Assembly: GCA_027309555.1 (NCBI GenBank) | Contig: DAIDCO010000018.1 | Coordinates: 1-34,411 of the forward strand | Source of the DNA: a bacterium | GTDB taxonomy: Archaea > Thermoplasmatota > Thermoplasmata > Lutacidiplasmatales > UBA184 | Direction: 5' to 3' | DNA length: 34,411 bases | Shown: in pieces, positions 28,106-34,411 of the stretch | Layout: each line of letters opens with the position of its first letter | Numbering within the stretch: position 1 is the first letter of the stretch | Position numbers and translations under genes: made by a program | Notes under the pieces: generated by a model | What the model saw: the letters and a program-made list of their open reading frames with translations, nothing else | What the model was told of the DNA's origin: nothing | The model's database searches: none

Positions 28106-31100
28106 TTACGGGGGCCGGCGGAACGGCCAGACCGGGGCCGCGGGAGGCGGGGCCGCCGTCGCGCCGGCCCCCAGCTCCTGAAGCCGCCGCAAAGCCTCGC
28201 GCGCCTTCTCGAGGGCAGCGCTGTAGTCCGTCTCCCGCAGACGGATCGATTCGGTCAGGAGAGCTCGCGCCGACGCGGTATCGACGTGATGATCGTGCGC
28301 CCGCGCGAGCGCGGCATCGATCAGGTAGTGGAGGTTCATCAGTTCCCGATGGAGCGACTTCCGCAGGTTGAGCTCCTCCTCGGTCCGGAGGAGCGAGCGG
28401 GCTCCCTCGAGCGCTCGGCCCGCCCGGTCGAGCTCCTCGACCTCTTTCAGGCGCGCGCGAACCGACCCGACGCTGACGTGAAGGCCCTCCTCCGCGAACG
28501 TCACTTCGGTCTGGACCTCCTTGAGCTTGCGTTCGAACGGCTCGCGGACGACGGACTCGAGCGCCACGGTCGCGCGAACGAGCAGCCCGTCCGCGTCCTC
28601 GAGGCGGCCCGCGTCGAGCGCCACGCGGGCTTCACTGAACGTCTGCATCACCGGCGTCGTGTCGACCCCGAGCCGCTCGCCGACCCACAGGCGGTCCTTG
28701 AAGCCGGCGGCCCGCGCCTCGACCTCCTCCTGGTGGCGTAGACGGGCGTTCGCGGCCTCGGAGTGGAGCAGCTCGAGCGCCCCGGCGTACTCCGGGCGCT
28801 CGCGGAACGCGGCGAGGCGAGCGAGCACCTCGGCCCGGCGGGCGAGCTCCGCGTCGGTGGGACTCTCGGTGCGCGCGTACTCCGCTTCGAGCTCGCGCCG
28901 TTGGCCGTCGACGATCCCTTCGAAGATGGTCCGGCGGAGCTCCTGGCCCCGTCCCAGCATCTCGCGTGCCCGCTTCCATTCCCGCTCACGGAGGGCGGCT
29001 TCGCCCTGGGTCACGAGGGCCTCGAGAGGGTCGACCTCGGCCGAGAGACCTCGCTGCTGGGCCATCTCGACCTCGCGGCGGAGTTCGCCGAGAGGCGCGG
29101 CGAACCGCCGCTCGATCGCCCATCGTCCGAGCTCGGTCGCCTCCCGGCTCGCGCGGATCGCCTCGGCGTACTGCCCCGCCCCAAAGTGCTGGCGTGCCTC
29201 GGCGAGTCGCGCCGTGGATTCCGTGGCGTCGGCGCCGTGCTCGGCGGTCTCCGCGACTTGCCGATCGGCCCCCGCGAGCGACTCCTGCGCCCGCCGGTGG
29301 CCCTCGCGAGCGACCGCGAGCGCGTCGAGCGCGTCCATCGACCGCTCGAGAACGTCGGCGAACTCGCGCGCTCGGAGCGCGACCTTCGCCGCTTCGTACT
29401 GCTCGCCGGCCCGCTCGGAATGGATCCCTTCCCCGATCGCTTTCGCGATCGCACCGCCCGCGGCTTCGATCGACCCTTCGGCGACCCGCTGCTGGAGCTC
29501 GGCCCGCTCGACCTCGGCCTCGCTGTGGGCGGCCAAGCGCAACGCCTCGACCGAGCGTCCCTCGTCGACCGCCATGCGGGCCTGGTGCAGGAGATTCTCC
29601 GCGAGCGAGGTATCGACGCCCTGGGCCCGAACGCCGGCCACCATCGCTTGGAAGCTGGCCAGGGTCTTCGAGACGTGCTGATACGTGGTCTGGAGCAGCT
29701 CCCGCTCGATCGGCCCCCCGAGCTCGATCACGCGCGCGTACTGCTTCTGGGCGAGGAGCTGCTCGAGTCGGTCCATCTGGCCCCGGAGGGCGACCGTATC
29801 GGCGTGCAGAAGGTCCGCGCCCGCGAGCGCCTCGCGCGCCCGCTTCGCGATCCGCTCGGCGTGCTCGACGAGCCCGCGGGTCGCGACGAACTCGGCCCGG
29901 GCAGAATCGAGGAGCGCGGCCGCTCCGATCGGGATCGGTAGCGCGACACGGCGCCGGGCCTCGGCGAGCGGCAGGAGGATTCTCTCGAGATCGACGCCGG
30001 CGCCCCGCGCGATGTCGAGGTCGACCTCGAGCGCCCGGAGATTCTCCTCAAGGACCGGTCGCAGGATGGCGATGAGCTCCTCGTGGAGGAGGCGCGCCCC
30101 GGTCCGGGTCGCTTCGGCGGGCGCGGTGGGGCGCTCGGTACGCAACTGTTCGACCCGGGCCTCGAAGGGTTCCATGGGGGAGGAGAGTCGGTGACCGTCC
30201 TCGATCATGAGCCCGATCTCCTGGAGCAGCCGAGAGGTCTCGAGGCGCGCTTCCTCGTCGGCGAGGCGCTGATGAAGGTCGTCGAGCAGGGTCCGAGCGG
30301 CGTCGAAATCGAGCGACTGGAGGAGGCCGCGAGCATTGCGGAGCGGTTCGTAGAACGGCGCGGGGTCGACGCCGGCCTCGCGCAGCCGGTTCAGCTGCTC
30401 GCCGGCCCGGGCAATCCCCTCGAGGAGCTGCTGGGCGGCGGCCCGGGCCCGCGAGGTGGCTTCCTCGAGCTTCGTCGCGACCCGGTAGGCCTCGAGGTAC
30501 TGACCCGCCCGGGCCGCGGTCTGGGCCTCCTCGAGCTGTCCTCGGAAGTCCGCGAGCTCGAGGCCCATCGTCTCGAGCTCGATGAGCGAGAGCTTGGTAT
30601 GGGAGACCGCGCCCTCGCTGCGCAACAGCTGTTGCTGCTGCGCGCGGGTTCGGATCTCCTGCGACGCGCGCGACGCCTTGACGAAGTCGCCCATGTTGAA
30701 GATCTGCTGGACCTCGTCGATCTGGCGCTGGATCTCGTCGCTCGCGCCTCCCATCTGCTCGAGGACGTGTCCTTCCGACTCCAGTACCTCGACTAAGGCG
30801 GAGGCGTGAGCGGCAAACACCGACGCGAAGTCGCGCTCGGCCCGTCGCAGGCTCTCGACCGCCGCCATGAGGTCCTGCTTCACGCGCAGGTTCACGTCCG
30901 CGTCCGCGAGCAGGCGTCGGACCGGGGCGGTCAGCCCGTCATCCGGGATGTCCCCGAGCCCCTTCTCCATCTCCTCGACCCGGCGCGCAATGTACGACCC
31001 GGCGGCGGTTCGGAGTTCGACCTCGGCCCGTCCGATTCGCTCGGCGCCGTCGGCGAGGTCGCCTCGGTCGAGGAGCTCCCGCGATTCCGTGAGGGCCCGG

Positions 31101-32224
31101 TCGGCGTCCGCGGAGAGGAACCCGCGGGAGCGGGCGTACTCACGGACCCGGTCGAGTCCGGTCCAGCGGCCCAGGAAGAACTGGAGGGCATCCCGGCCGA
31201 GACGGACGACCGTGTCGGCGAGGAGCTCTCGAGCAGGTCCGATCTCCGCACGGTCGAGGTGAGCGCGAATCCGACCGATCGCCGATTCGAACGGCTCGAC
31301 GGCGAGGCCCGTCTGTCGGAAGCGGCCGAGCATCTCCTCGACCGCGGCCATCTCGTCGCGCGCCGCGCTCATGTCCTCGGTAAGGCGGCTCACGCGGTCG
31401 AGTGCCTCCTGGCTCGCGGCGAACGCCTCGGAGTAGATCTTCAGCCGAAGCGCCTCCCGCGCACGGTTCATCGCCGCGAACACCTCGCTGGGATCGCGAC
31501 CGAGGCGACGGGCCTCGGCGATCCGGGGACGGACCTCGTCGAGCACGCTCGCGATGACCGTCACGACCGGCTCCTCGGCCACGCGACGGGCCTCGAGGAA
31601 GATCGAATGGAGGTCGAGCGGCGCCGCCGTGGCGATCCGCGCGGTGGCCTCCTCGATCGCGCGGCGGGCTTCGACGGGGTCGACGCCGTAGTCGGCGGTC
31701 GCATCAACCGAGGCGCGGAGCCCCGCGAGCCCCTGGAGGCACCGCTCCCGGAGCGCCTCCCCCACCTCCGCGACCGCGGCCTCGGTCGCGGGCACGGTGT
31801 CGGGCCAACTCTCCACGCTCGCCTCGGCGCCGGCGTCGAACGAGGCCTCGAGTACGGACGTGGGTGCCCCGTGCTCCTTGGCCTGCGAGAGCAGCGTCGC
31901 CGCGGCTTCCCGGATCGAGCGACGACGCTCGACCGCCTCAGGAAGGTGGTCCCTCAATGCCCGTTGGATCGCCTCGAGTCCCTCCGCCGGGCGCCCTTCC
32001 TGGGCTGCCGCAGCGGCTTCATCGAGCTCGCGCTCGAACTCGGACATCCGTTCGGGGGGAAGGGCCGCCCAACGAGCGACGCGAACGGCCCGCTCGCGAA
32101 CGGTCGCGAAGTGTTCTGACTGCGCCCGGCGCAGCGCATCCTCGGCGTGCACCAGGTGAGCGACGGTCGTCGACCAGGCCTCCTTTTCGGAAGGGTGCGA
32201 AAGCGAGTCGAGGTCGGCCGTCAC
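28106..32224 (-). CDS. Giant alpha-helical repeat / coiled-coil protein
   Basis: A 1372-aa protein of almost pure helix (Ala, Glu, Arg, Leu) with no membrane segment and no cysteine-rich or catalytic motif. It is built of repeats of roughly 80-100 residues. A recurring core is a short G-[VLI]-[DST] turn, then a helix with LxxAR, then G-x-x-x-[ED]-A followed by another helix. Examples are YGVDPVEARRAIEEA, RGFLSADADRALTESRELLDRG, AGVDPAPFYEPLRNARGLL, QGVDTSLAENLLHQARMAVDEG and LGVDTTPVMQTFSEARVALDAG. The helix pairs recall TPR-like solenoids, but the turn signature differs. The protein ends with a Pro-rich tail VWPFRRPP. GTG 32224 is only the first start in frame; the same repeat pattern continues upstream. 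Function unknown; a scaffold or structural role is inference. Confidence 0.8.
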   Translation of the reverse strand: MTADLDSLSHPSEKEAWSTTVAHLVHAEDALRRAQSEHFATVRERAVRVARWAALPPERMSEFERELDEAAAAAQEGRPAEGLEAIQRALRDHLPEAVERRRSIREAAATLLSQAKEHGAPTSVLEASFDAGAEASVESWPDTVPATEAAVAEVGEALRERCLQGLAGLRASVDATADYGVDPVEARRAIEEATARIATAAPLDLHSIFLEARRVAEEPVVTVIASVLDEVRPRIAEARRLGRDPSEVFAAMNRAREALRLKIYSEAFAASQEALDRVSRLTEDMSAARDEMAAVEEMLGRFRQTGLAVEPFESAIGRIRAHLDRAEIGPARELLADTVVRLGRDALQFFLGRWTGLDRVREYARSRGFLSADADRALTESRELLDRGDLADGAERIGRAEVELRTAAGSYIARRVEEMEKGLGDIPDDGLTAPVRRLLADADVNLRVKQDLMAAVESLRRAERDFASVFAAHASALVEVLESEGHVLEQMGGASDEIQRQIDEVQQIFNMGDFVKASRASQEIRTRAQQQQLLRSEGAVSHTKLSLIELETMGLELADFRGQLEEAQTAARAGQYLEAYRVATKLEEATSRARAAAQQLLEGIARAGEQLNRLREAGVDPAPFYEPLRNARGLLQSLDFDAARTLLDDLHQRLADEEARLETSRLLQEIGLMIEDGHRLSSPMEPFEARVEQLRTERPTAPAEATRTGARLLHEELIAILRPVLEENLRALEVDLDIARGAGVDLERILLPLAEARRRVALPIPIGAAALLDSARAEFVATRGLVEHAERIAKRAREALAGADLLHADTVALRGQMDRLEQLLAQKQYARVIELGGPIERELLQTTYQHVSKTLASFQAMVAGVRAQGVDTSLAENLLHQARMAVDEGRSVEALRLAAHSEAEVERAELQQRVAEGSIEAAGGAIAKAIGEGIHSERAGEQYEAAKVALRAREFADVLERSMDALDALAVAREGHRRAQESLAGADRQVAETAEHGADATESTARLAEARQHFGAGQYAEAIRASREATELGRWAIERRFAAPLGELRREVEMAQQRGLSAEVDPLEALVTQGEAALREREWKRAREMLGRGQELRRTIFEGIVDGQRRELEAEYARTESPTDAELARRAEVLARLAAFRERPEYAGALELLHSEAANARLRHQEEVEARAAGFKDRLWVGERLGVDTTPVMQTFSEARVALDAGRLEDADGLLVRATVALESVVREPFERKLKEVQTEVTFAEEGLHVSVGSVRARLKEVEELDRAGRALEGARSLLRTEEELNLRKSLHRELMNLHYLIDAALARAHDHHVDTASARALLTESIRLRETDYSAALEKAREALRRLQELGAGATAAPPPAAPVWPFRRPP

Positions 32225-32714: not shown

Positions 32715-33101
32715 TCAGGTCCGCGTGATCCGTCGCTTGCCCATCGCGTCCAGGTACTGGATCTCGGTCCCGGGCGAGAGCTGGCCCTTGAGGTCGGCGT
32801 CGAGCGGAAGGCTGAACGTCTCGTAGCTTTCGAGGTCCATCAGCTGTACCTCGGCGTCGGTGAGCGACAGCACCTGCGCCTGTCGCTTGCCGATCATCGG
32901 CACCTGGACCTTGTGCTTCACGGGAAAGACGACGCTCCGTTTGGAGCCGTCGAAAATCCCCACTGCATCGATCCGAGCCTTCGCCTCCCCGTGCTTCCCC
33001 GGTTTCGAGGTCTGAATGCTGAGGATGCGACAGGGCTCCTCGTCGATCAGCATATAGCGGCCCTCTTTGAGTTCCCGAACCTCTTGCTGCGTCCAGGCCA
33101 T
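32715..33101 (-). CDS. Translation initiation factor 5A
   Basis: aIF5A helps the ribosome pass difficult sequences such as proline runs and carries a hypusine made from one lysine. The 128-aa protein starts at ATG 33101; the track ORF adds unrelated upstream residues. [21 protein letters not shown] contains the modified Lys at about position 36. The C-terminal OB domain is complete ([21 protein letters not shown]). A TATA-like CTTATCA about 42 bases upstream gives a leader of about 16 bases. The gene points toward the giant repeat protein gene and is divergent from the aaRS-like gene. Confidence 0.96.
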
Positions 33102-33192
33102 CGGATGGATCCTCGAGGATTCGGGGAAGGGTCCGGTGTGATAAGAGTTGCCCCGGACCTCGGGACGCGGGTCTTCTGCCGGCGCGAAGGAG

Positions 33193-33201
33193 GGTTTATT
33201 C
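33193..33201 (+). promoter_or_regulatory. TATA-like box of the aaRS-like gene
   Basis: GGTTTATTC with TTTATT about 54 bases before ATG 33251, which gives a leader of about 28 bases. It is the only AT-rich spot on the plus strand between eIF5A and this gene. Confidence 0.45.
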
Positions 33202-33250
33202 GAGGCCCGGCCCATCCCGAGATCGTCCGACCGCCGTCCTTCTTCCGAAC

Positions 33251-34411
33251 ATGCCTCCCCCTTCCAGCGAGTACGATCCTCGGTCGTTGGAAGCCGAGGT
33301 ACGCCGGTTCTGGAAGGCGCGAGGTCTCCCCCCTGCCGGAGGGATCTCCGGCCCCGCGGACGGCGCAATCCTTCACGCCTTCGAAGGGACCTGCGTCTCC
33401 CGGGAGGGGCCCGGCGCCCTCGTCTTCCGGGCCGTGGCCGCCGACGTCGACGCCCGGTATCTCGCCCTCATCGGCCGTCGGTTCGTCGGCACGCTCCGCT
33501 GGGAAAAGGTCGGCGAGATGGCCGAGCCGCCCGAGGGAGAGCTTCTCCGCCGCCTGGGAGTCTGGACCGGGGGAAACGGCGCGGTACCGTGGGATACGGA
33601 AGACCGCTTCCGGATCGTGGAAGCGATCGTGGGGCGGCTCGCGCGCCGGGGGGCGATCGTCTCGCGCGATCTCCCGATGCGGATCTGCCCGACGTGTACG
33701 GTCCCCCGCGCCCCCGAGCGGATCATCTACGAGGAAGAGGAAGGGGAGACCCACCTCGTGCGGTTCTCGATCCACCGGGACGGGCACGCGGTCTCCGCCC
33801 TCGTTTGGGTCGATAGCCCCTGGAAGCTCCTCGGGGCCGCCGCCGTCCTCCTCCACCCCGACCTACCGTACGTGGTCGCGCGCTACCGTCGCAAAGACGC
33901 CGAGGAGCTCGTACTGACCTCCCGATCCTCCCTCGAACGGTTCCGCGCTTGGATCCCGAGCGCGACCTTCGAGGTTCTCGAGGAGCAGCCCGGCCGCGCG
34001 TTCGTGGGGACGGTCTACCAGTATCCTCTCCGTCACGAGTTCCCGATGGGGGGAACGGTCGCACCGCCCGGCGGAACCCTGCTCGCAGTCCCCGAGGTGA
34101 CCGACACAGGCACGGGCATCGTTCCGCTCGTTCCCGGCCACGGAAGCACGGACGCGACCGTCGCGGAGGCCTACGGGATCGCCGGGTGGCCGCTGCTCAC
34201 GCCCCGCGGCCAACTCGATTTCACCCTGGTCCACAAATACGCGGGCCTCGACCTCAAGACGGCGAACGAGTTCATCGTTCGAGACCTAACGGAAGCCGAC
34301 GCGGTCTTCGCTCATCTCACGGTGCGCCACGGGGTACCCCACTGCCTCGTTTGCGGGACCGCCCTGATCTGGATCCCCGGGCGGGCGTGGTGCCTCGAGC
34401 CGGGTCGCCTC
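33251..34411 (+). CDS. Class Ia aminoacyl-tRNA synthetase-like protein lacking HIGH (partial)
   Basis: The 387 visible residues run off the window, so the track does not list it. The N-terminus [17 protein letters not shown] matches IleRS/ValRS. Where those have GPPYANGxxHxGH, this protein reads [20 protein letters not shown], so the ATP-binding HIGH motif is missing. A Rossmann part with RRLGVWTGG and the zinc-like CPTCT follows. The editing-domain (CP1) features are kept: [21 protein letters not shown], corresponding to WTTTPWTL, then [26 protein letters not shown], corresponding to GTGIVH.APGHG..D with the editing Asp. [12 protein letters not shown] and [11 protein letters not shown] match the usual continuation. 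Start ATG 33251 has a TTTATT box about 54 bases upstream. It is most likely an inactive paralogue that could act as a trans-editing factor. Confidence 0.75.

Follow-up and report, generated by a model that had tools for sequence, protein, structure and literature searches.

Our analysis of the window (the whole 34,411-nucleotide stretch, which is the entire contig C24 of genome G000) indicates that the isoleucyl-tRNA synthetase (IleRS)-derived gene running off its end (Table 1) is very probably the native archaeal-type enzyme of this lineage, which would have gained a C-terminal HhH and DUF835 module while still active, been displaced from charging by an acquired type-2 IleRS, and been kept as a pseudo-synthetase unable to activate isoleucine or charge tRNA. 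Sequence comparisons and a structural model together demonstrate loss of the synthetic site, retention of the fold, a remodelled and conserved CP1 domain, descent from the archaeal-type (type A) enzymes and a DUF835 tail, and pseudo-synthetases related to it occur in seven or more Thermoplasmata families. The explanation that we favour overall, and consider probable, is that of a displaced native synthetase retained as a non-charging pseudo-synthetase that presumably binds tRNA(Ile).

Table 1. Features of the window, with coordinates, strand and basis of assignment.
Feature	Coordinates	Strand	Basis or remark
1,372-residue protein, probably coiled-coil	28106..32224	-	no Pfam match
aIF5A gene	32715..33101	-	head-to-head with pseudo-synthetase
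Divergent intergenic region between aIF5A and pseudo-synthetase, 149 bases	33102..33250	.	coordinates
IleRS-derived pseudo-synthetase, N-terminal part (387 residues)	33251..34411	+	ORF open at contig end
Replaced HIGH region (residues 38-71), 34 residues of other sequence	33362..33463	+	alignment with intact IleRS of the class and orthologs
CPTC (C146, C149), first Cys pair of structural zinc site; kept in 60/60 orthologs	33686..33697	+	alignment with 1ILE and orthologs
Remodelled Thr-rich strand of CP1, W186-V-D188-S-P-W191-K192-L-L-G-A (canonical WTTTPWTLPxN)	33806..33838	+	alignment with 1ILE and orthologs
Second CP1 motif, 15 residues, GTGIVP for canonical GTGxVH..PxxGxxD	34109..34153	+	alignment with 1ILE and orthologs
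CLVC (C365, C368), second Cys pair of that zinc site	34343..34354	+	alignment with 1ILE and orthologs

The window protein matches the NCBIfam ileS profile (TIGR00392) over residues 125-381 (6e-25; 88 bits against a curated cut-off of 621), a complete ortholog scores 103 bits, also below the cut-off, and a phmmer comparison with known structures gives IleRS matches, the best being 1ile at 1e-18; residues 1-125 had no match by sequence. An origin from ValRS or LeuRS was ruled out, as the best profile and structure matches are to IleRS and the tree leads to archaeal-type IleRS. Motif states were taken from alignments, in which the canonical F.EGPPTANG.PHIGH is replaced in the window protein and likewise in the orthologs (e.g., LHQLEGSFVSTED). 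KMSKS is gone in the full-length orthologs, where a segment reading about VLPTLPEIDL stands in its place (the corresponding part of the window gene falls in an assembly gap), the WCISRQRYWG, DVWFDSG and DQTRGWF segments have also been lost in the pseudo-synthetase family, and its two catalytic halves have shrunk, one from 172 to about 137 residues and the other from 226 to about 176. The sequence thereby combines the absence of a synthetic site with a retained editing domain, as a trans-editing factor would. A diverged synthetase that still activates some amino acid through a non-canonical site is extremely improbable: the overall IleRS fold is kept, and altered HIGH motifs are reported for some resistant IleRS (PMC10485003), but here all catalytic segments are gone rather than a single motif, both catalytic halves are shortened, and it is these halves that are least conserved relative to active enzymes (ratio 0.25, against 0.43-0.51 elsewhere in the protein).

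The gene could be recovered in two pieces. Its DUF835 end lies outside the window at the start of contig C68 of the same genome (C68:2-1183, locus L149; 50 bits against the DUF835 profile, cut-off 33), and the middle, sought in the same genome, is missing in the assembly gap between C24 and C68. Complete orthologs are about 1,340-1,820 amino acids long and consist, in order, of a Rossmann domain carrying CP1, an anticodon-binding domain, a C-terminal domain, HhH, a proline-rich linker and DUF835, with Anticodon_1, HhH and DUF835 (PF05763) all retained, the last at 44 and 50 bits against the same cut-off. Eight Cys, which from alignment with IleRS we take to be the ligands of two zinc sites, are kept in 59-60 of the 60 orthologs. 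For one ortholog, 70% identical to the window's part, residues 1-1085 were modelled with AlphaFold2; the model is confident (pLDDT 88, pTM 0.79) and has a full-length IleRS as its best PDB match (4e-48), including the C-terminal tRNA-binding domain. What remains is thus most of a synthetase scaffold and not a free-standing editing domain.

Orthologs are present at 44-73% identity in most genomes of the host genus, and genera g33 and g98 have them at 32-38%. The pattern common to these 60 sequences from three genera, taken mostly from draft assemblies, is far beyond chance. In one of the genomes of the host genus the pseudo-synthetase is present twice (L210 on G237:C20 and L211 on G237:C58), with 57% and 52% identity to L036. 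Close ortholog pairs are under purifying selection (dN/dS about 0.17-0.3, Nei-Gojobori). The gene is absent from five near-complete genomes of the genus (G001, G002, G013, G019 and G057), so the pseudo-synthetase is dispensable. The aIF5A gene adjoins it head-to-head at 38 ortholog loci, and we infer that the intergenic region is a promoter region common to both; relatives of the 1,372-residue protein on the far side of aIF5A flank the pseudo-synthetase at about 34 ortholog loci. The split of the window gene over two contigs and its loss in some genomes of the genus might suggest a functionless decaying relic, a chimera or a contaminant, a reading that is barely credible given 60 orthologs with long open frames, the low dN/dS, fixed pocket residues (see below) and the conserved synteny with aIF5A. 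The orthologs, the model, purifying selection and synteny therefore make an artefact, chimera or contaminant very unlikely.

Genomes of the class Thermoplasmata contain up to two types of IleRS. Type A is archaeal-type, reads HIGT and SKS and is often about 1,240-1,540 amino acids long, and type B is type-2 (bacterial/eukaryote-like), with PHIGH, KMSKS and a length of about 1,040 amino acids. The window family lies inside the type A clade with an SH-aLRT support of 100, in a tree made by a quick search in which long branches group decayed copies, leaving the number of displacements and decays unsettled. Many intact type A enzymes end in DUF835, several of them with HhH, and a gain of DUF835 after decay was ruled out because active type A enzymes carry it. 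L079, L099, L102, L103 and other apparently active type A IleRS have this C-terminal DUF835, several with HhH or zinc ribbons. In the other classes of the phylum, type A matches stop near position 1,065 and the frames are mostly about 1,050 amino acids, and so without DUF835.

The second IleRS of the host genome is a type-2 enzyme on contig C104, in which PHIGH, KMSKS, WTTTPWTLPAN and GTGFVHVAPSFGPDD are all present, with an intact editing site and its last residues cut by the contig end; the ValRS is on contig C43 (826 bits). The C104 gene rules out that the window gene is the host's only IleRS, and a simple recent duplicate of the host's IleRS was ruled out since the two genes are of different types in the tree. 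The preliminary description of this DNA had seen a HIGH region replaced by unrelated sequence, which holds for the window protein and its orthologs, and had offered a repurposed synthetase as one reading; that reading gains support from the canonical IleRS and ValRS found elsewhere in the genome and from the absence of KMSKS in the full-length orthologs.

The two IleRS types were compared family by family across the class. Type B is complete, and type A lacks KMSKS and usually HIGH, in families f1, f2, f3, f6, f9, f13 and f18; type A is gone in f15 and f19; and ten families without type B have an intact type A. Family f5 reverses the roles seen in all other families with both types, as its type A is intact and its type B decayed (KISRAS, KIKRGT and KMRNVH at the KMSKS position). 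The editing site is altered too in the decayed f5 copies L124, L126 and L130 (G065, G078 and G088). Exactly one complete IleRS type was found in 20 of the 20 scored families, the other being absent, lost or decayed (Fisher p 6e-6, with families counted as independent and before kinship correction; the scoring excluded f20, which has a third IleRS-like gene, and f10, whose gene is partial). The simplest history would be displacement of A by B with A retained, and the reverse outcome in f5. Two further variants were observed among these genes. L143 (G086:C27) is an IleRS-like gene with GVHH for HIGH, MHRS for MSKS and an intact editing strand (WTTTPWTLSSN), which stands beside an archaeal-type IleRS and recalls IleRS with altered signatures. 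In f11 (L103, L105, L109 and L110) the sole IleRS detected in each genome has MHKS in place of KMSKS, a change that is therefore presumably tolerated.

The CP1 pocket has been remodelled, and its altered form is fixed in the family. Across the 60 orthologs (L036 numbering; window residue numbers are one lower), W187 is found in 58, D189 in 59, and W192, K/R193, H298 and D302 in all 60. Relative to the Escherichia coli enzyme, the position of T242 is Asp in 59/60 and that of T246 Lys or Arg in 60/60, T241 corresponds to Val or Thr and is changed in about half, T243 is mostly Ala or Ser, N250 is Thr or Ala, and H333 is Pro, Thr or Ala. The window protein itself has Pro for the editing His (H333) and keeps H297 and D301, the latter at the position of D342, where Asp is present in all orthologs as well. 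In IleRS, T241 and D342 act in hydrolysis and T246 and H333 keep cognate isoleucine out (PMC9023258), and the amino acid carried by the tRNA is bound at its amino group by D342, whose loss costs 10^4-fold in deacylation (PMC4861432). As no relevant substitutions were reported for the editing domains of 334 IleRS sequences (PMC4861432), a rebuilt and conserved CP1 pocket should surprise specialists. Judged from its residues, the pocket of the family is conserved, yet differs from the known IleRS deacylase site. Retention of the amino-group Asp with loss of both residues that exclude isoleucine would fit the recognition of charged tRNA(Ile), and simple hydrolysis of Val-tRNA(Ile) is argued against by the additional Lys/Arg and by the missing T241.

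The preliminary description had also proposed that CP1 features remained and that the protein might be a trans-editing factor for Val-tRNA(Ile) or Thr-tRNA(Val). The domain and its second motif are indeed present, and the Asp aligns with D342; the strand called WTTTPWT-like reads W-V-D-S-P-W-K in the alignment with 1ILE and the family, its editing threonines replaced, and the editing His has been lost from GTGxVH, which became GTGIVP. Because all or nearly all orthologs differ at T242, T243, T246, N250 and H333, and about half of them at T241, such trans-editing is not supported, and a trans-editing factor also sits badly with the intact editing site of the host's IleRS and with the near-complete scaffold of the protein. 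What survives of the idea is a trans-acting deacylase of altered specificity, e.g., for cognate Ile-tRNA(Ile) or a non-protein amino acid on tRNA, with D189, H298 and D302 as a rebuilt centre. We regard it as unlikely: CP1 is the best-conserved domain in the window's family, the Asp at the D342 position, so important in deacylation, is invariant, and E. coli IleRS with T246A/H333A hydrolyses Ile-tRNA(Ile) in trans (PMC9023258), both positions being changed here, but about half of the orthologs have another residue for T241, which acts in hydrolysis, and nearly all have replaced T242, T243 and N250, a Lys or Arg for T246 should fill the pocket rather than open it, the host's own IleRS has an intact editing site, and hydrolysis of cognate Ile-tRNA(Ile) would be costly.

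Conservation is distributed differently in the displaced copies of different families. Within the window's family, conservation is highest in CP1 (0.65 within and 0.49 between sub-groups), the other domains reaching 0.46-0.56 and 0.32-0.39, respectively, with DUF835 at 0.56 and 0.39 and the anticodon-binding and C-terminal domains among the less conserved; among active enzymes the catalytic halves are the most conserved (0.58-0.60 against 0.51). Relative to active enzymes, DUF835 stands at 0.89-1.10 in f13, f18, f2, f3 and f9 and the catalytic halves at 0.30-0.84, and f6 has lost DUF835 and keeps the C-terminal domain at 0.97 of active-enzyme conservation. In the decayed copies of f9, CP1 is the least conserved domain (0.30), so a role of CP1 is not general, and constraint is clearly on the C-terminal part. 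These values for f9 and for DUF835 in the five families would suit a function, regulatory or nucleic-acid binding, that resides solely in the C-terminal domain, HhH and DUF835, with the synthetase part as an eroding passive scaffold. That reading is nevertheless rather unlikely, if somewhat less so than a new deacylase, as CP1 exceeds DUF835 in conservation in the window's family, the CP1 pocket is fixed in the 60 orthologs, and f6, without DUF835, still keeps the rest.

For the retained pseudo-synthetase we tentatively suggest a role as a sensor of tRNA(Ile) charging, or a chaperone, rather than as a quality-control enzyme, a proposal that we hold with less than even confidence. The protein would grip tRNA(Ile) through its anticodon-binding and C-terminal domains, and the remodelled CP1 pocket would read the charged 3' end, the invariant Asp at the D342 position holding the amino group where the isoleucine-excluding T246 and H333 are gone; the charging state may then be passed on through the HhH/DUF835 tail, which is inactivated KaiC-like. 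The one paper found that mentions DUF835 deals with two-component systems and lists the domain, present in response regulators of archaea, as an inactivated KaiC (PMC5847659). The sensor mechanism appears weakened by the tRNA-binding domains, which are present but among the less conserved in the window's family. Family f5 also keeps a decayed type B copy without a long C-terminal extension, so DUF835 cannot explain retention there. The more specific form, a regulator in which the pocket (W-x-D-x-x-W-K/R, P-x-H-G-x-x-D) recognizes or slowly hydrolyses cognate Ile-tRNA(Ile) and is coupled to a KaiC-like DUF835 output, is unlikely.

Replaced synthetases are normally expected to be lost; here the native one persists in several Thermoplasmata families as its synthetic site erodes, and it probably has a new job involving tRNA. 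The reciprocal pattern of one complete IleRS per genome amounts to a natural experiment on the roles of synthetases besides charging, and with the remodelled CP1 comes an amino-acid-binding pocket, the altered specificity of which is open to direct assay. Our literature search, mostly outside subscription journals, found no trans-editing protein derived from IleRS, no link between DUF835 and a synthetase, including any IleRS-DUF835 fusion, no dead IleRS or one lacking HIGH and KMSKS, no rebuilt IleRS CP1 pocket and no reciprocal decay after displacement. The fusion of an active archaeal IleRS to HhH and DUF835 thus seems to be undescribed.

Among known systems, the archaeal-type IleRS of Thermoplasmata with HhH and DUF835 (e.g., L079 and L099) share both the clade and the domain order of the pseudo-synthetase; unlike the window family, which has lost all of these motifs and has shortened catalytic halves, they keep HIGT, SKS and WTTTPWT...GTGxVH. 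Coexistence of two IleRS types in one genome, one of them probably acquired, has been described for bacterial IleRS1 and IleRS2 and for the Lokiarchaeon ileS2 beside an archaeal IleRS, but that work describes no decaying copy (PMC4861432). HisZ, PoxA and SbzA, the last an IleRS homolog, are likewise synthetase paralogs with functions other than charging for translation, though none of the paralogs covered in that work is an IleRS without HIGH and KMSKS and with a rebuilt CP1, and PoxA and SbzA are transfer enzymes (PMC9437257). The nearest known synthetase paralog is LeuRS-I of Sulfolobaceae, also an extra archaeal class Ia synthetase copy whose CP1 is altered; it binds but does not charge tRNA, still makes leucyl-adenylate and has a disrupted CP1 (PMC9437257). 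In the window's family, unlike LeuRS-I, no synthetic site is left and no part is better conserved than CP1.
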